Shown one piece after another: positions 19,859 to 27,092 of a stretch of 64,000 bases of DNA (position 1 is the stretch's first letter; every line of letters starts with the position of its first letter). The translations under genes were made by a program, and so were the position numbers. The stretch lies in the NCBI GenBank assembly GCA_018402085.1, contig JAGYJM010000002.1, positions 372,001-436,000 of the forward strand. Direction: 5' to 3'. The notes beneath the pieces were generated by a model. That model was not told where the DNA came from. It saw only the letters and a program-made list of their open reading frames with translations, and searched no databases. The DNA is from Flavobacteriales bacterium (GTDB lineage Bacteria; Bacteroidota; Bacteroidia; Flavobacteriales_D; Sanyastnellaceae).

Positions 19859-22849
19859 ATGAGAATTTTGCTTGCCATGACGGCCTTGTTTGCCGTCACC
19901 TCAACGCTTGCGCAGAGCGACATCGAGTTTTATACCGACCCGAATGAAGTTCGCCTGAGCTTTCCTGAACAAGAAAACCACGACCCGATCTTACAGCAAG
20001 AATTGCGCGAGGCCGGAGCATGGAAGTTCTTCGCGAAAAACCATGAACGATGGTTTGCCTTGATGAGCCCTGAACACCAGCTCCCACACAGGGCGTTCGG
20101 TCAACCGCTTGAAATTCCCGGTGCCGACCCCCTTGCCAAAGCCGAATGGTTCGTTGAGAACGAGTTGCGCGCTTTTGGTGTGAGGGCAGATCAACTCACT
20201 GAGCCTTCTCTCCACAACAGTAAAAAACATGCGTACGTGCGCTTCGGCCAGCAAATCAATGGTGTGCCGGTGCTGCGAAGCGAATTGGTGCTGAAGTTCC
20301 ATGAGGGTCGCCTGATTATGTTTGGTTGTGATTACTACGCAGATCCGAAGCTTCCTGAAGAACCTTTGATCAGCGCAGAAGCGCTGGATGCCGCCGCAAG
20401 TGCAGGACTCGACCTTGCATTAATGGAAACAGAAGACCTCGGATTACACATCTTGCCCGTACCTTTTGAACGCGGACATCAGCTGCGATTCGTACAGGAG
20501 TTCATGGTGAGTGGCTATGTGAATGCCGTGCCACGTCGTTACAAAACGTATGTGGATGCCATTACCGGTGAAGTACTGGTTCGTGACAATACAGTAAAGC
20601 ACATCGGGCCGGGAGACCCGGAATCGAAAAAAGAGAAGAAAAACAAGAAAGTACTCCCAATGGGGATGCCGGTGGTGGTATCCGGTCAATTTCAGGGTAC
20701 CGTGCATGATATCAGCGTGCTCGAAGACACGGAAGTACTTCAAATGCCTTACCTGAACTTCAATCTTGGAGGCCAAACATTCACCACTGACGGTGATGGA
20801 GGCTTTATTACGAACGTAACCGGGCCGGCGCAGGCAGAGGTAAGTCTTGACGGTGCGTATTGCCATATTTTCACCAACGGCAATACGCCCTCCTTCACGG
20901 TATCAATGAATGATGGCTACAATACGGTTTCGATCGATGACCTCGCGAACCTGCGGGAGCGCTCCACTTACCGAAATACCAATATTTCATGGGAACACAT
21001 GAAAGAGTGGCTGCCTAACTTCACCGGTCTGGATTACCCACTTCCAACTAATATCGATGTGGTGGGTGAATGCAATGCTTTTTACGATGGGAATTCGATC
21101 AATTTCTATCCGGCCGGTGGCGGCTGCAATGCGACTTCTTTGCTCAAAGAAGTCGTGATTCACGAATACGGACATGGCATCAATGACAAGTATTACCAGT
21201 CGCAAGGGGCTTTCTACAATAATGGCGCGATGAACGAGGGGTATGCTGATTTCTGGGCGCTGTCAGAAACACAAGACCTGCGCCTTGCAGAAGGTTTCTA
21301 CAGCGACAACGATGACCCCTTGCGTCGCTATGACATCGACCCTAAGATCTATCCTGAAGACCTGATTGGGCAGGTACATAACGACGGCGAGATTATCTGT
21401 GGTGCCTGGATGGCCACTCATATCCTCCTCGGTGAAGACTGGGATCAAACGATTGCGCTCTTTGTAGAGGCCTTTGACGGATTACAGGCTACAGCATTCA
21501 ACGGGAATGAAGGCCAGGCGTATACCGATGTATTACTAGATGCACTGCAGGCAGATGATGATGATGGAGACCTCAGCAACGGAACACCAAATGGTGATGC
21601 AATTATTCAGGGATTTGATGAACATGGCATTACCCTCTTTGCGTACGCTGACATTGAACATGAGCCTGTTGAGTTTGCAGAGGCTGAAACAGGAATCACC
21701 CTCGAAGCTGACGCTGAAATTGTATTCCCATTTGGACAATATTTTGACAGCATGCGGGCTTATTACCGCTTTGGTCCCGAAGAGGAATGGCAGTCGGTGA
21801 TTATGGATGAACAAGACGACGTGTTCGTCACCAGCATTGACGGGCAGCCCGAAGCTTCTGTGATTCAGTACTACTTTGGTATTTCAGATGTATTCGGAGG
21901 CATATCGGCAGTGAATCCGGTAGCTGCCAATAAAGAGGTGTATCCGAACCTTCCTCATTTCACGCTGGTGGGCGTGTCGCCGATGCTGATCAACGATTCT
22001 GATGATTATTCAGAGTTCGGATTCTTTGACCTCGGTACACCACAAGATAATGCCACCACCGGCGAGTGGGACGAGGTAGAACCCGTTGGCAGCTTCGCAG
22101 ACCCGATGGATCCTTCTTCGATTGTGGCACCCACTGAAGATCATACCGATGTGGAGTTTGGTTTCGCCTTTGTTACAGGTGAAAACCCGGGCGAAGACGC
22201 TGCCATCGGAGCCAATGATGTGGATGGTGGCAGTACCACCTTACTCTCGCCGCTTGTTGATCTTACCGTCTACGATGATCCTGTGCTCGCCTATTGGAGA
22301 TGGTATGTCAATGCTCCGCCCAGCGGCGCCAACCCCGGAGCGGACTGGTGGCAGGTAGAAGTCTCAGATGATGGAGGAAACACGTGGGAACGCGTTGAAA
22401 ACACACTGACACAAGACATTAGCTGGAGAAGAAATGCTTTTAAAATCAGCGAGTACGTTGACCTCACAGCAGATTTCCGCTTCCGTTTTATCGCTTCTGA
22501 TTCTGTGCGTCTTGGGCAACACCTTGACGGCGGTAGTTTGATTGAAGCAGCTGTAGATGACATCGTGTTGTACGACGTGGGCGACGGCACGTCTATTGAA
22601 GAAGAGGATGCGCTGGCGATCGATCTTTTCCCGAATCCCGCATCAGATGTTGTGCAGCTCCGTCTGCCTGCAACGGGGGGGCGCCTGGATGTGATCGATA
22701 ACCGCGGACGTGCAGTTTACACGCTTGAGAACGCTACTGACCTGAACCCGCTTGTTGATGTATCAAAATGGCGCGCAGGTGCTTATTTTGTAAGGTACAT
22801 CGACGCTGATGGCAAGCCATGGAATTTGCGTTTCACCGTGAGTCGATAA
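19859..22849 (+). CDS. Secreted M36/M4-like zinc metalloprotease with T9SS sorting domain
   Basis: 996-aa exported protease. In order: signal peptide (1-18, ending TLAQ), a propeptide with an FTP-like inhibitory region (VRFGQQINGVPVLRSELVLKF, about 120-240), a catalytic domain with HEYGHGIND (His435, Glu436, His439) and the third ligand Glu460 in NEGYADFWA, the gluzincin arrangement seen in fungalysin (M36) and thermolysin (M4). Then beta-rich domains, one like a MAM/jelly-roll (SPLVDLTVYDDPVLAYWRWYVN), and a C-terminal T9SS type A sorting domain (LFPNPASDVVQLRL...GAYFVRY). Predicted to be cleaved and attached to or released from the outer membrane surface. Confidence 0.88.
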   Translation: MRILLAMTALFAVTSTLAQSDIEFYTDPNEVRLSFPEQENHDPILQQELREAGAWKFFAKNHERWFALMSPEHQLPHRAFGQPLEIPGADPLAKAEWFVENELRAFGVRADQLTEPSLHNSKKHAYVRFGQQINGVPVLRSELVLKFHEGRLIMFGCDYYADPKLPEEPLISAEALDAAASAGLDLALMETEDLGLHILPVPFERGHQLRFVQEFMVSGYVNAVPRRYKTYVDAITGEVLVRDNTVKHIGPGDPESKKEKKNKKVLPMGMPVVVSGQFQGTVHDISVLEDTEVLQMPYLNFNLGGQTFTTDGDGGFITNVTGPAQAEVSLDGAYCHIFTNGNTPSFTVSMNDGYNTVSIDDLANLRERSTYRNTNISWEHMKEWLPNFTGLDYPLPTNIDVVGECNAFYDGNSINFYPAGGGCNATSLLKEVVIHEYGHGINDKYYQSQGAFYNNGAMNEGYADFWALSETQDLRLAEGFYSDNDDPLRRYDIDPKIYPEDLIGQVHNDGEIICGAWMATHILLGEDWDQTIALFVEAFDGLQATAFNGNEGQAYTDVLLDALQADDDDGDLSNGTPNGDAIIQGFDEHGITLFAYADIEHEPVEFAEAETGITLEADAEIVFPFGQYFDSMRAYYRFGPEEEWQSVIMDEQDDVFVTSIDGQPEASVIQYYFGISDVFGGISAVNPVAANKEVYPNLPHFTLVGVSPMLINDSDDYSEFGFFDLGTPQDNATTGEWDEVEPVGSFADPMDPSSIVAPTEDHTDVEFGFAFVTGENPGEDAAIGANDVDGGSTTLLSPLVDLTVYDDPVLAYWRWYVNAPPSGANPGADWWQVEVSDDGGNTWERVENTLTQDISWRRNAFKISEYVDLTADFRFRFIASDSVRLGQHLDGGSLIEAAVDDIVLYDVGDGTSIEEEDALAIDLFPNPASDVVQLRLPATGGRLDVIDNRGRAVYTLENATDLNPLVDVSKWRAGAYFVRYIDADGKPWNLRFTVSR

Positions 22850-22858
22850 AGAGCACGA

Positions 22859-22979
22859 TAGATTTGTAACCCTTAAAAAACTTCACCGTAAATGCCCATA
22901 GATCCATTTGGATCATACGCATTAAGAGCAAGCATTTTTGGTTAAGGTTAAAAAGCCCCGGTTATCCGGGGCTTTTTTT
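22859..22979 (+). ncRNA. Small transcription unit 1
   Basis: A TAGATTTG promoter box (22859-22866), a GATCC-ATTT-GGATC hairpin (22901-22914), the block AGAGCAAGCATTTTTGG ending in GGTTAAGG (22940-22947), then terminator GCCCCGG-TTAT-CCGGGGC with seven T. Predicted RNA about 105 nt. A 17-codon frame (22892-22945, ending RASIFG) is also present, so a tiny peptide cannot be excluded. Confidence 0.5.
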
Positions 22980-23139
22980 AATCTCCATCATCCCATCCGT
23001 CAAGGGGCCATACGGAAAAGCGGGCGAGAAACAGAGAATATTGCACAGATATAGGGGGTGGAACCCTGAATAATAAGGATTTAAAAAATTGATAATCAGT
23101 GTTTTGTCACGAAATGAAAAGTTTTATCTTGAAAACTTG

Positions 23140-23268
23140 AAACCTTTGGCAACGTACTCCGTACATAATATCAAGAACTTTGATTCGCTAGAATCTAAAG
23201 CATTTAGAGCAAGCATTTTTGGTTAAGGTAGAAAGGCCTCCGTAACGACGGGAGCCTTTCTTTTTTTG
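23140..23268 (+). ncRNA. Small transcription unit 2
   Basis: Hairpin GATTC-GCTA-GAATC (23182-23195), then GCATTTAGAGCAAGC, TTTTTGG and GGTTAAGG (23221-23228) as in unit 1 with identical spacing, then a long imperfect terminator (23231-23267). The stem differs from unit 1 by paired changes that keep base pairing. The 5' end is approximate; AACCTTTG near 23150 is one base off the promoter consensus. No in-frame ATG opens the RASIFG frame here. Confidence 0.45.
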
Positions 23269-23345
23269 CATTGTTTTTGTCTTGTAGGAATCTTCTTACA
23301 AGGCGGTATCTGATCTTTCCTACTTTATTTCATAACGTCGGCAAC

Positions 23346-23494
23346 TATATTCGTTATGAAAGCAAGACTTTCAATCTACATGAGAGCCTTCTCCCCGCTG
23401 CTGCTGGGAGAATCGCAAAGGTTAATCGTAGTTTTAGTATTTTAAGTTAATTTGGTTAGGAGGAAGTTCTGGTAACGATCAGAACTTTCTTTTG
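23346..23494 (+). ncRNA. Small transcription unit 3
   Basis: Hairpin TTCTCCC-N10-GGGAGAA (23389-23412), then an A/T-rich stretch with TTTGGTTAGG (23451-23460) and terminator stem GGAAGTTCTG/CAGAACTTTC with TTTT. TATATTCG at 23346-23353 is one base off the promoter consensus. A 29-codon frame (23356-23445) begins right after it; whether it is translated is unknown. Confidence 0.4.
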
Positions 23495-23673
23495 TTTCAT
23501 TCTCTTTTTGTAAGGCGTTTAATTTTTCGACAAGTGGTCAGCAGTGCTTCTCGTCGATGATTTTCACCCGCTCATAATATGGATGAAACCAAAAAAATGT
23601 GAATTCAGGTTGTCGGACGCTTCCTACACGTACTCTGAGTCTCATTCTTACGTTGTATCCATGTAGGGTAACT

Positions 23674-23814
23674 TACATTTGTATTGTACAGATAGCAAAG
23701 AGCTTATCAAACGCAGTCTCTGATACTGTGTAAGGTACAGTTAGAAGTTTAGTTATTTAGTATTTTGGTTAAGGTTAAGGCAAAGCCCCGGAAACGTCCG
23801 GGGCTTTCGCTTTT
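23674..23814 (+). ncRNA. Small transcription unit 4
   Basis: Promoter TTG (23653-23655) and TACATTTG (23674-23681) with 18-bp spacing, hairpin ACTGT-GTAAGGT-ACAGT (23725-23741), TTTTGGTTAAGG (23763-23774), then terminator AAAGCCCCGG/CCGGGGCTTT. No ATG-initiated frame occurs between promoter and terminator, which favours an RNA product. Confidence 0.5.
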
Positions 23815-23834
23815 CAGGCCTTCAAGTAAGCCCA

Positions 23835-24602
23835 CTAAATAATCTCTGCAGCCTTCCGTGGCATCCAGCCTACGTTTCCATTGGCTATACGTACCTCAAA
23901 CCACTGATCGGTTTCTTGTAATATATTCACCTTTGTGCCCTCGTGAAGTACAAAGGCGTTGGTGTCATTGCTGTTCGGACTGTTCTTTACCTCCACTTTT
24001 GGCTCAAGAATCACCGCTTCCTCAGACGCCTTGATGCGGTGGTAAGTGGCCCGCGACATACCGTAACCGAGCACTCCGAGAAGGATCAGCACGACCCCCG
24101 ACCAGAAAAATGCTCTGCGGGCGCCCGGAGTACTCACCCAAAGCCAACTTGAAAGAAGAAGAAAACCAATTACATTCAGTACTATGGCCATGCCTGTCCA
24201 CATTGACAGCCGGCTGGATGAGGTCAAAACGGTCCACAAATCTTCAACGCCCAGACTGGGGAGCTCTTGAATGCGGTCTTTTACTTTTTCATTGGCAATG
24301 GCCAAATTCACCCGTAAATCGCCGTCAGAGGGGTCAACTTTTTTGGCACGTTCGTAAAACAATATACTTCTACCAAGTTCTCCGGAGCGATAAGCGGCGT
24401 TGCCCGCATTGAAATAAAGCTCAAAACTCACGTAATCAGCGGCAATGCTGTCGTAAAGCGCAAGTGCCCGATTGTATTCAGCGTCTTCATACGCAGCATT
24501 GGCTTCGGTGAAGAGTGCTTCTGCTTCCGGCTGATCGATGCCGCGCAGAAGCGCGGGATGCGAAATGAACCCGATGAAAAGAAAAATGATAATTGGCTTC
24601 AT
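23835..24602 (-). CDS. batE: BatE: TPR and SH3-like aerotolerance protein
   Basis: Last gene of the Bat operon, 255 aa. Signal peptide at the N-terminus, two tetratricopeptide repeats (EALFTEANAAYEDAEYNRALALY; FNAGNAAYRSGELGRSILFYERA), two adjacent transmembrane helices (about 145-195) and a C-terminal bacterial SH3 domain (VLHEGTKVNILQETDQWFEVRIANGNVGWMP). The start is the ATG 24600-24602, overlapping the batD stop by 4 bp; a longer frame upstream overlaps batD by 100 bp. A palindrome copy encodes HPALLRG at the end of the signal peptide. Confidence 0.85.
   Translation of the reverse strand: MKPIIIFLFIGFISHPALLRGIDQPEAEALFTEANAAYEDAEYNRALALYDSIAADYVSFELYFNAGNAAYRSGELGRSILFYERAKKVDPSDGDLRVNLAIANEKVKDRIQELPSLGVEDLWTVLTSSSRLSMWTGMAIVLNVIGFLLLSSWLWVSTPGARRAFFWSGVVLILLGVLGYGMSRATYHRIKASEEAVILEPKVEVKNSPNSNDTNAFVLHEGTKVNILQETDQWFEVRIANGNVGWMPRKAAEII
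24541..24562 (+). repeat. Dispersed palindrome copy 4 (in batE)
   Basis: CCGCGC-AGAA-GCGCGG then GATGCG. On the coding strand it gives HPALLRG just at the predicted signal peptidase region of BatE. Confidence 0.75.
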
Positions 24603-26284
24603 AGGGCTTCCATTTGGCGGATGACTTCCTGCGCTTCCTGAAGGTCTTTTCGGGTGTCGGCACTGCTCACAGGAGCAAATCGAGAGGCTTCGCACTTGTC
24701 CCACAAAACCAAAAAACGTTCGCGTTGTACCTCCGGAGTGGCAGAAAGCACCTGGTTTACTTTTTTCCGGGTTACCTCACTTCGCTCAAGCGAAAATTTG
24801 TCCATGATGTAGGCCTCCAGTCCGCGGTGAAGCGAAGCATAGAATTGATGCTGGTCACTCTGATCCTGCTCAGCCTGACGAAGCCACTTACGCAGATTTC
24901 GTCCGGCGTTTTTACGCCGTGTACCCGCAACGTCTTGCACTTGTAATTTTTGTTTTCTGCGATACAGCAGCAGGATGGTAAACAGACCGAAGGGTGCTGC
25001 GTAAGACAGGTAGAAAGGGAGACTGCCGAAAAAGTAAGCCGCCGGAGGGCGCAGGTTACCAGCTTGATTGCGGATATAGCGAATGTCTTTATTCAACACC
25101 TGTACATCAGACTTTGCGTTGAAACTATAGTCAACGGCAGCACCTTCCGCACCTTTATCAACCTCCAGGCGCGTAGAAGAACAGGTGAGTGTTTCGTAAC
25201 TCTTTTTTCTCGCATTGAAATAACTGAAGGTCAACTCAGGCAGTGTGTAAGAGCCCGCTGAACGAGGTATAATGACATAATTGAAGGCACGAGAACCCTG
25301 AATGCCATTGGTACTGACACTGAAACGATCTTGAACCTCCGGGTCAAAAACTTCGAGGTCAGGAGGCCACGCAATACCTGGCGCCTGAAGTAATCCGAGA
25401 TTTCCGGTGCCTGCAAACCGGATGTTCAGGTCAAGTGCTTCATTGGCAGCCAGGCTTTCTCGCGTGGTTTCACACGTCATGGTGAGATTGTCAAAGGTGC
25501 CCAGGAAATTCGCGGGTTTCCCTGCCGGAAGAGGCAGAACCTCAATGGTGGCAGAAGATGGGGTTGAAGTTACCCGCTGGCGGTTCCAGAAGCTGCCTAC
25601 AATTCCGGTCATTGAGAATCCGTCAATGGTGATGCTTCCGGTTTGTTGCGGAAAAACAACCTCTACTTTCAGAGTGGCCTCTGAGTAGCGCTGGCCATTG
25701 ATGACTTTGGTTTCCCATTGCCCCTGATGATCGGGCACCTCTTCACGCCAGAAACCATCAATATCAGGCAGTTCATACGACTCGATGTTCAGGCTGCCAT
25801 AGCGTTGATAAACTTTATAGCGCAATACTACCGGTTCACCTAAGTAAACCTTGGTGCGCGAAGGCTCTACAATCGTCATGAAGTTCGCGTTCACTTCCGG
25901 ATTCACGTTGCGCTTGACAGTAAGGGTAAAGGGCTTCGTTTTGACTTTTCCTGAGGCAGTGGTCACCGTGATCGACGGTATTTTGATTTCACCTTCAGTA
26001 TTTGCGCGATAGGTGAACCAATAGGTGAAGTTGCTCACTCTCTGACCGTTCGCAATGTAGGTTCGGTTATCCATGCCTTGCCCGCCAATGTATTGAAGTC
26101 CGGGAATTCGCGGGACTTCCATTTTTGCCTCAGCATTGGTAACGGTGATACTGAGCTTAAACGCTTCACCAGGTGAAACAGGATTCTTACTTACTGCCGC
26201 CGAAGCTGTGATGGCATCTTGTGCCCAAATTGAGCAAGGTAAGGCCAGCAGCACTAATACCCATAGTATACGCGCTACGCTCAT
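24599..26284 (-). CDS. batD: BatD family oxygen-tolerance protein
   Basis: 561-aa membrane protein of the BatD family. Signal peptide (LVLLALPCSIWAQ), a series of beta-sandwich domains beginning with AAVSKNPVSPGEAFKLSITV and including PFTLTVKRNVNPEVNANF, a transmembrane helix (YLSYAAPFGLFTILLLYRRK) and a cytoplasmic helical tail. The start is the ATG 26282-26284, two codon positions past the batC stop; an ATG 11 codons earlier would overlap batC. Bat proteins were first linked to oxygen tolerance in Bacteroides and to stress resistance elsewhere; mechanism unknown. A variant palindrome copy lies in the tail. Confidence 0.9.
   Translation of the reverse strand: MSVARILWVLVLLALPCSIWAQDAITASAAVSKNPVSPGEAFKLSITVTNAEAKMEVPRIPGLQYIGGQGMDNRTYIANGQRVSNFTYWFTYRANTEGEIKIPSITVTTASGKVKTKPFTLTVKRNVNPEVNANFMTIVEPSRTKVYLGEPVVLRYKVYQRYGSLNIESYELPDIDGFWREEVPDHQGQWETKVINGQRYSEATLKVEVVFPQQTGSITIDGFSMTGIVGSFWNRQRVTSTPSSATIEVLPLPAGKPANFLGTFDNLTMTCETTRESLAANEALDLNIRFAGTGNLGLLQAPGIAWPPDLEVFDPEVQDRFSVSTNGIQGSRAFNYVIIPRSAGSYTLPELTFSYFNARKKSYETLTCSSTRLEVDKGAEGAAVDYSFNAKSDVQVLNKDIRYIRNQAGNLRPPAAYFFGSLPFYLSYAAPFGLFTILLLYRRKQKLQVQDVAGTRRKNAGRNLRKWLRQAEQDQSDQHQFYASLHRGLEAYIMDKFSLERSEVTRKKVNQVLSATPEVQRERFLVLWDKCEASRFAPVSSADTRKDLQEAQEVIRQMEAL
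24903..24919 (-). repeat. Dispersed palindrome copy 5, variant (in batD)
   Basis: C then CGGCGT-TTTT-ACGCCG, preceded by TTTCGTC in place of the CGCATC tag. Encodes RRKNAGR in the BatD cytoplasmic tail. Weaker member because the tag is changed. Confidence 0.45.
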
Positions 26285-26285
26285 G

Positions 26286-27092
26286 CTACCAGTCTTTTTC
26301 CACTTTTCGTTTCTCACCTTCTTTATCTTTTCGTCTCAGTGCCTGTTGCAGGAGTTTTTCACGCTGGTCAAGGGCTTTCAGCATTCGTTCAGCCTCCTCT
26401 TTACTGATCTTGTTGGGCATGGCTTGTTGATTTTTAGACTTGCTGTTTGGCTCGTCTGATGAATCACCCTGGTTTTGCTGGTTCTGGTTTTGCTGGTCCT
26501 GGTTTTGCTGATCCTGGTTTTGCTGGTCCTGGTTTTGCTGGTCCTGGTTTTGCTGATCCTGGTTTTGCTGATCCTGGTTTTGCTGATCCTGGTTTTGCTG
26601 ATCCTGGTTTTGCTGGTCCTGGTTTTGCTGATCCTGGTTTTGCTGATCCTGGTTTTGCTGGTTTAATTTTTTCTTTGCGAGCATCAGGTTATGTCGTGCA
26701 TCACTGTCAGCGGGGTTCAGTCGCAGGCTTTGTTTGAAAGCTTCAGCCGCTTCTTTCCATTGGCTTGCCTGATAGTGTGCATTTCCTTTATTGAATAGGG
26801 CTTCTGCTTTCTCCAGCGGGTTGTTCGTGCGGTTTGCTGAAGCTTCAAATGCATCGGAGGCTTCTTCAAAGTCTCCTTTTCGGTAGAGTGCATCACCGCG
26901 ATTGAATTCAGCGAGTGCCGGGTTAGCGCCTTTTTCGATGCTTTCACTGTAGAGGCTGTCGGCACGATAAAATTCACCGGCTTCAAAAGCTTCGTCAGCA
27001 AGGTTGAGGTTCTTCCGCAGCTCCTGGGCTTGTATTCCGCCTGAAAAGGCGGGAAGCAGTAAGCAGATCATAGCGAGTAGATGCTTGTTCAT
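26286..27092 (-). CDS. batC: BatC: TPR protein with QQNQD repeat tract
   Basis: 268 aa. Signal peptide (MNKHLLAMICLLLPAFSGGIQAQ), TPR repeats (about 25-135: FEAGEFYRADSLYSESIEKG, EKAEALFNKGNAHYQASQWKEAAEAF), then a low-complexity tract of thirteen 5-residue units, mostly QQNQD, and a highly charged C-terminus (ALDQREKLLQQALRRKDKEGEKRKVEKDW). BatC homologues are periplasmic TPR proteins working with the VWA proteins BatA and BatB. It overlaps batB by 4 bp and abuts batD. Confidence 0.85.
   Translation of the reverse strand: MNKHLLAMICLLLPAFSGGIQAQELRKNLNLADEAFEAGEFYRADSLYSESIEKGANPALAEFNRGDALYRKGDFEEASDAFEASANRTNNPLEKAEALFNKGNAHYQASQWKEAAEAFKQSLRLNPADSDARHNLMLAKKKLNQQNQDQQNQDQQNQDQQNQDQQNQDQQNQDQQNQDQQNQDQQNQDQQNQDQQNQDQQNQNQQNQGDSSDEPNSKSKNQQAMPNKISKEEAERMLKALDQREKLLQQALRRKDKEGEKRKVEKDW
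26469..26663 (-). repeat. 15-bp minisatellite, 13 units, inside batC
   Basis: Thirteen tandem copies of a 15-bp unit (plus strand CTGGTTTTGCTG plus GTC, ATC or GTT) encode QQNQD. Unit changes are confined to the thirteenth base (G/A) and the last one at the array ends. Slippage would change the tract by whole codons and leave the frame intact. Confidence 0.95.
27037..27057 (+). repeat. Dispersed palindrome copy 6 (in batC)
   Basis: CCGCCT-GAAA-AGGCGG then GAAGC. On the coding strand it encodes PAFSGG within the end of the BatC signal peptide. Confidence 0.65.

Follow-up and report, generated by a model that had tools for sequence, protein, structure and literature searches.

The window analysed here, a 64,000-nucleotide stretch of a Flavobacteriales genome, contains a 985-base gap between protein genes (22850-23834) that holds four short units, all on the plus strand. 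In each unit, a hairpin is followed 5' to 3' by an A/T-rich, C-poor linker (T-rich), the core TTTGGTTAAGG, and an intrinsic terminator (Table 1). The word TTTTGGTTAAGG occurs at 22936, 23217, and 23763, and unit 3 carries the core variant TTTGGTTAGG at 23451; a hairpin and a T-rich stretch lie directly 3' of every core, unit 3 included. The terminator loop is AACG in three of the four units, the exception being unit 1 (TTAT). The longest open reading frame (ORF) fully within the gap is 59 amino acids. The original prediction of four units with terminators on one strand, in a region without protein genes, is confirmed. The hairpin arms that it gave for units 1 and 2 are likewise correct, as is their identical hairpin-to-core spacing (21 nt). 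In a four-genome alignment, the window copy of the unit 3 linker differs from the others by several additional T and the lack of one A. The TPR/SH3 gene bordering the gap is batE-like. At 26286-27092 on the minus strand there is a further TPR gene, BatC-like, with a long tandem QNQDQ repeat and GFADPGFAGP repeats on the opposite strand.

Table 1. Features of the four-unit cluster and its flanking genes (positions in the window).
Feature	Position	Strand	Evidence
Secreted protein, type IX sorting tail, second synteny anchor	19859..22849	+	Por_Secre_tail
Putative sigma-A -7 box, unit 1 (TAGATTTG, TAnnTTTG type)	22859..22866	+	Read from sequence
Unit 1 hairpin, GATCC-ATTT-GGATC	22901..22914	+	z = -2.2, p = 0.026 vs shuffles
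Unit 1 core TTTTGGTTAAGG, predicted antisense seed	22936..22947	+	Motif search, alignment of members
Unit 1 intrinsic terminator, loop TTAT	22950..22979	+	R1 57.6 bits
Unit 2 hairpin, GATTC-GCTA-GAATC	23182..23195	+	z = -2.3, p = 0.038
Unit 2 core TTTTGGTTAAGG	23217..23228	+	Motif search
Unit 2 intrinsic terminator, AACG loop	23230..23267	+	R1 68.2 bits
Putative unit 3 -7 box (TATATTCG)	23346..23353	+	Inferred by eye
Unit 3 first hairpin, GAAAG-..-CTTTC	23358..23372	+	G001 counterpart GAAAGC..GCTTTC
Unit 3 variable hairpin, TTCTCCC/GGGAGAA	23389..23412	+	Position kept in relatives, stems differ
Unit 3 linker and core, ending AAGTTAATTTGGTTAGG	23414..23460	+	Conserved for the most part across four genomes
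Unit 3 intrinsic terminator, AACG loop	23460..23494	+	R1 57.5 bits
Putative unit 4 -7 box (TACATTTG)	23674..23681	+	Identical in window and 4 aligned relatives
Unit 4 variable hairpin, ACGCAGT/ACTGTGT	23711..23731	+	z = -1.3, p = 0.12 for the window copy by itself
Unit 4 linker and core, TTTTGGTTAAGGTTAAGG from 23763	23740..23780	+	Core mean P(unpaired) 0.90
Unit 4 intrinsic terminator, AACG loop	23782..23807	+	R1 77.9 bits
batE-like gene (TPR + SH3), synteny anchor	23835..24704	-	Pfam TPR_2, SH3_3

A generic terminator scan of 20000-27000 recovered the terminators of units 2 and 3 but not those of units 1 and 4. It found 12 sites in all and is little proof by itself, because this total barely exceeds that of shuffles (mean 8.0, sd 3.3). 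Generic promoter and terminator scans gave counts near shuffle level and were not used as evidence. The core, by comparison with its reversed pattern, is above chance in the window's 3.78-Mb genome: TTTTGGTTARGG occurs eight times and the reversed pattern not at all. A similar terminator lies 3' of six of the eight occurrences. Three of the sites are in the cluster, three are isolated copies with a similar terminator (L005, L006, and L008), and the remaining two fall in a gene leader (L004) and at a gene end (L007). Across 21 members selected by the core and aligned from it, TTTGGTTA is invariant and the terminator loop is AACG in 19. Similarly, the aligned loop is AACG in 79 of 84 matches to a covariance model built mostly from AACG-loop members; these matches comprise 72 distinct sequences, 68 of which have AACG in the terminator part. 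Core and terminator are the most conserved part of the units, rather than the upstream hairpin stressed by the original prediction.

To follow this module beyond the cluster, we used a covariance model (R1) of the 3' module made from 18 sequences; one copy from the window's own genome was held out and was recovered at 51 bits. Running such a search of relatives, as the original prediction had proposed, identified R1 matches at E ≤ 0.01 in 111 of 114 genomes of the host's taxonomic family, with all 21 of its genera represented. There are up to 14 matches per genome (8 in G000, 14 in G001, and 13 in G002), so that many paralogous copies with an intrinsic terminator coexist. At E ≤ 1e-5, matches were present in 42 of 245 genomes of the order (40 of 51 in the host's family and 2 of 194 others) and in 4 of 392 genomes of a phylum sample, 2 of those 4 belonging to the host's family. 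Absence outside the family is not proof, since the order and phylum searches took genomes at least 90% complete, applied stricter filters, and scored at most 20 and at most 12 candidates per genome. The out-of-family matches are L132 and L133 from the phylum sample and two f4 matches from the order search.

A scan of genome contigs returned 28 loci, and by reading, eight matches in seven of them are family members (L040, L043 [twice], L045, L046, L049, L057, and L060). In L042 a hairpin also follows the match; the other loci look like chance and lie mostly within long frames. Three loci from a viral-contig scan with AGCATTTTTGGTTAAGG have no terminator after the match and were taken as chance. 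The public metagenome-assembled genomes (MAGs) of L040, L046, and L049 are named Chryseobacterium gleum, and their module scores equal those of L108, L107, and L105 of genus g12 in the host's family; these MAGs are probably mislabelled. Rfam gave no match at its cut-offs in the window or in 20 related loci, and the original prediction had likewise recognised no known RNA class. Permissive thresholds produced 34 and 10 weak matches, all below cut-off and mostly to unrelated families. There is no apparent description of this RNA family in the literature on flavobacterial and Bacteroidota sRNAs that we covered, mostly non-subscription papers. On the strength of these comparisons, we regard the units as members of a many-copy RNA family of one bacterial family that is missing from the RNA catalogue Rfam.

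The upstream hairpin is a different matter from the module in how it is kept. Covariation had been claimed from units 1 and 2, and two sequences make a thin argument; yet the comparative data back it, as hairpins are kept while stems are replaced. In orthologs of units 3 and 4, a hairpin occupies about the same place and its stem sequence is wholly replaced. The unit 4 stems, for example, are ACGCAGT/ACTGTGT in the window, GTTGAGG/CTTCAAC in G001, and GGCGC/GCGCC in L045, and those of further relatives are CCGCAG/CTGCGG (G047) and CTCTTGC/GCAAGAG (L057). By eye, the register of the unit 2 hairpin is not kept in G001 or G002. Compared with dinucleotide shuffles, the folding energies of 15 segments, five per unit type, gave a Stouffer Z of -8.0, with folding windows that were picked with hairpin positions known and sequences that are related. 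By type, Z was -2.8 for unit 1/2 (the weakest), -6.3 for unit 3, and -4.8 for unit 4. Single segments reached p < 0.05 in 8 of 15 cases and missed it in 7, and for the G001 ortholog of the unit 1/2 type, folding was not better than in shuffles. Initial windows for units 3 and 4, which truncated the hairpins, gave weaker values (Z of -1.5 and -2.2) than the wider windows used in their place. After duplicate and cut-short upstream sequences were dropped from the 84 matches (leaving 73 for folding and 71 for the sigma54 search below), a wide-window test of the 73 members gave a mean z of -0.86, with 19% below -2. In a group of four loci (L082, L084, L117, and L138), a long hairpin has arms that change together (GGTGGTTC/GAACCACC, GGTGATTC/GAATCATC, and ACAGTCC/GGACTGT); GGTAGGGTA lies upstream in L082 and L117.

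Exact promoter boxes had been predicted for units 1 and 4. TAnnTTTG boxes are indeed present in both (TAGATTTG at 22859 and TACATTTG at 23674), but no exact -33 box, as defined by its known consensus, was seen by eye at the usual distance in either. The boxes of the window units are of the sigma-A type and were read by eye. Unlike the unit 4 box, the unit 1 box has no support from conservation; the unit 4 box in G047 and G048 differs (TACAATTG and TACAACAT, respectively). A different motif, TGGCA[CT]N5-6TTG, lies upstream of the module in 24 of 71 members (shuffle mean, 0.1), the 71 being the non-duplicate members from the loci searched, a part of all loci. By its likeness to the familiar -24/-12 consensus, this motif is a sigma54-type promoter. 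Loci with TGGCAC-N5-TTG include L064, L068, and L094-L135, several of them with a hairpin like ACTTCTCAGTAAGT before the core, possibly marking a distinct subfamily. In PMC9723704, TAnnTTTG is the consensus of the -7 box and a sigma54 motif is reported in a flavobacterium.

The same batE-like gene adjoins related clusters in at least three genera, being found near units in the G001, G002, G046, G047, and G048 loci as well as in L045 and L057. Within the window's genus, G001 and G002 have a three-unit cluster beside the batE-like gene and a different gene on the far side. In the MAG locus L045, three units are flanked by batE-like and protease genes; G047 and G048, from another genus, have four units beside batE; and in L057 a single unit follows batE in the other relative orientation. 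The secreted Por_Secre_tail gene found upstream in the window is also present in L045 and L093 and is absent at that place in G001 and G002. The unit 1/2 type is doubled in the window and the unit 3 type in G047 and G048, indicating that the duplication is lineage-specific. With tandem duplication visible, a shared module, and comparative hairpin data, a locally duplicated sRNA family, as originally proposed, is supported as the best reading. In L032 and L033 (G001 and G002), the gene preceding the cluster has a DDGSC-type repeat region at its own end and in this resembles the predicted target class described below. Elsewhere, the modules of L102, L103, and L110 start directly after an ORF stop codon (ORFs of 153, 499, and 499 amino acids within the stretches) and are possibly 3'UTR-derived sRNAs.

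The exact complement 10-mer of the core, CTTAACCAAA, has 56 sites in three genomes of the window's genus. By reading, 31 of these are sRNA or sRNA-like (9 in the window's own genome, 11 in G001, and 11 in G002). Six of the 25 other sites are in start regions (3 of 6, 2 of 12, and 1 of 7 in the same genomes), within about 20 nt of the start codon and on the complementary strand. The rest are at gene ends, in post-stop stretches, and in ORF interiors, and the gene-end sites include two groups that resemble coding conservation. Outside sRNAs, CTTAACCAAA has no clear excess over its reversed control: 15 sites (6 of them recognised sRNAs) versus 8 in the window's own genome, 23 versus 16 in G001, and 18 versus 22 in G002. 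All six start-region genes, three of which are orthologs of one gene, encode a signal-like start and GCTDPxACNYDP...DDGSC repeats, and we therefore tested complementarity across this class of giant secreted proteins. The class was defined after the six sites had been seen, start codon assignment followed a simple rule, and the class contains many paralogs.

Among 337 ORFs from stretches of the window's genome, a complement of at least 8 nt was found for 15 of 40 class genes and 8 of 297 others (p = 2e-10). In 12 of the 15, the site starts 9-21 nt before the ATG. De-duplication by protein start or leader likeness reduced 31 signal-like class genes to 25; class genes without a signal-like start (5 of 36 in G000), stretch-edge genes, and genes with N were dropped from the class tests. 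In this de-duplicated set, 19 of 25 class genes have a complement of at least 7 nt, compared with 10 of 248 others (5 of the 104 that have signal-like starts and 5 of the 144 that lack them; p = 3e-17); none of 300 shuffled cores reached 19. Of the six discovery genes, L151 (in L212) is part of this class set, and L146 (truncated in L195) was counted with the others. For the leader alone, 15 of 25 were observed, whereas dinucleotide-shuffled leaders averaged 2.4 and reached at most 7 of 25. When class-leader 7-mers were ranked without reference to the sRNA, CTTAACC, a complement of the core, came first of 820 (7 of 25 class genes and 0 of 248 others).

Two other genera show the class bias in weaker form. 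Complements of at least 8 nt were found in G047 for 7 of 19 class genes versus 3 of 95 others (p = 1e-4) and in G030 for 7 of 20 versus 3 of 67 (p = 0.001); at 7 nt or more, the counts are 7 of 19 versus 6 of 95 (p = 0.001) and 8 of 20 versus 7 of 67 (p = 0.005). Shuffled cores equalled the observed count at 7 nt in 16 of 300 cases for G047 and 11 of 300 for G030. The top 7-mer in both genomes is TAACCAA, also a core complement. Class genes without even 7 nt number 12 of 19 in G047, 12 of 20 in G030, and 6 of 25 in the window's genome. In one ortholog group, the 13-nt site ACCTTAACCAAAA precedes the ATG by 8 nt in four species and by 9 nt in a fifth, with differing flanks. The proteins of this group share 55-68% identity across genera; the one from the window's genome is about 68% identical to that of G001 or G002, and the latter two are 98% identical to each other. 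In a second ortholog group, TTAACCAAAA is retained across three genera, and there the flanks resemble each other too. Predicted duplexes between the four units and four leaders range from -14.6 to -25.8 kcal/mol, and the core is predicted to be partly open in units 1-3 (mean P(unpaired), 0.26-0.40) and open in unit 4. The window's whole genome has 193 GCTDP repeat matches, and about 100 kb of it (C2:733000-832500; L193-L197) is dense in giant GCTDP-repeat genes, some near-identical.

Taken together, each of the four units is probably a gene of its own, encoding a small base-pairing RNA that acts in trans, and all four belong to one multicopy family that would target GCTDP leaders. As would be expected of such RNAs, each unit appears to be an independent short gene with its own terminator and inferred promoter, with a structure conserved across species and a predicted, conserved complementarity to distant mRNA start regions. 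This complementarity to the start regions of giant-protein mRNAs suggests joint control of those proteins.

The units could instead be sRNAs whose core is mainly a protein-binding site (for an RRM protein, for example) or a stability element, in which case the leader complementarity would be incidental or protein-sequestering. The core does lie beside the terminator in all aligned members and, in structures predicted for units 1-3, is partly paired; a single RRM_1 match is present in the genome, and RbpB, according to PMC11697453, binds mainly single-stranded parts of its RNA ligands, FopS included. However, a protein site predicts neither sequence-specific complementarity to one gene class in three genera nor a 13-nt site at the same spacing in five species, making this reading rather unlikely. 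We also consider it unlikely that TTAACC-like words in the class leaders stem from paralogy or serve as a translation aid and match the sRNA core by coincidence. Several class genes are near-identical duplicates and the leaders of the second ortholog group are alike beyond the site, but the signal was controlled with de-duplicated sets, genes with signal-like starts, shuffled leaders, and shuffled cores, and the first orthologous site has differing flanks. It is quite improbable that the units have no trans function and are only terminators, untranslated leaders, or 3' ends belonging to longer transcripts: intrinsic terminators are common and the three modules that begin right after an ORF stop codon fit this description, but the units come with promoter boxes, conserved linkers, and hairpins, whereas the other strong hairpin-plus-T sites in the window have different loops and lack the core and the AACG loop. 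Tiny peptides are very improbable products, as no frame of similar length is present in all orthologs of any unit (alignments A3-A5) and stems are replaced wholesale, although 40- to 59-residue ORFs with TTG or GTG starts overlap the region and GTG/TTG frames of 18-30 residues run through core and terminator in some orthologs (unit 1/2 type in G001, G002, and L045; unit 4 in four of five); ortholog-shared starts give unequal frames or lie in the core and cross the terminator.

If the units are trans-acting base-pairing RNAs, each would be transcribed as a small RNA from its own promoter, of the sigma-A type here and of the sigma54 type in 24 of 71 relatives. The RNA would consist of a fast-changing 5' hairpin, a T-rich linker, the shared seed UUUUGGUUAAGG, and a terminator that is usually AACG-looped. 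The seed would pair with the mRNA start region and block ribosome loading, and different promoters would let different signals act on one target set. Hfq is lacking in many Bacteroidota, and because no Hfq match was found in the window's genome, the RRM protein may assist. A more ambitious reading, which we hold tentatively, is that of a dedicated post-transcriptional switchboard in which sRNA genes, numbering up to about 14 in a genome and driven by sigma-A or sigma54, would use one seed to silence tens of giant GCTDP-repeat surface proteins together, with fast-evolving hairpins tuning the copies and with seed and sites co-maintained across genera.

The closest parallel is FopS (RF04319) of Bacteroides thetaiotaomicron, which PMC11697453 describes as a set of multicopy paralogous sRNAs (12-15 copies per genome). 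Their conserved seed lies in a single-stranded 5' stretch ahead of an intrinsic terminator and is reported to pair with SusC-like surface-protein mRNAs at the start region, blocking translation. Both are multicopy Bacteroidota sRNAs with a conserved seed beside an intrinsic terminator and with surface-protein start regions as targets (candidate sRNAs and predicted targets here), and the FopS Rfam consensus also has UUUAAGGUUAA before the terminator. The best window units score 19.9 and 19.8 bits against the FopS model, and none of 20 related loci reaches the cut-off; at about 20 bits versus a gathering score of 56, we did not file the window family as FopS. Unlike FopS, it has AACG-capped terminators, variable upstream hairpins, partly sigma54-type promoters, and tandem clusters, and it belongs to another taxon, with GCTDP-repeat proteins as its predicted targets. 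The short resemblance (UUAAGGUUAA before the terminator) may reflect a distant link; homology aside, the window family would, by analogy, work like FopS. Rfp18 and the other Rfp RNAs are also independent flavobacterial sRNAs. Rfp18 of Flavobacterium psychrophilum is needed for precise protease expression and is predicted to pair via its third stem-loop (PMC9723704); it is set apart from our units by this description. OmrA/B, Qrr, and LhrC are sibling or multicopy sRNAs too (PMC11697453) and come from other phyla.

To our knowledge, few sRNA regulons are known in Bacteroidota, and we know of no study of the control of very large GCTDP-repeat secreted proteins. With the units described here, a whole taxonomic family gains a candidate sRNA family together with a concrete predicted target set. 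The parallel to FopS, in which many sRNA genes with a common seed act on the start regions of one surface-protein class, raises the question of whether this may be a general way for Bacteroidota to control expensive surface proteins.
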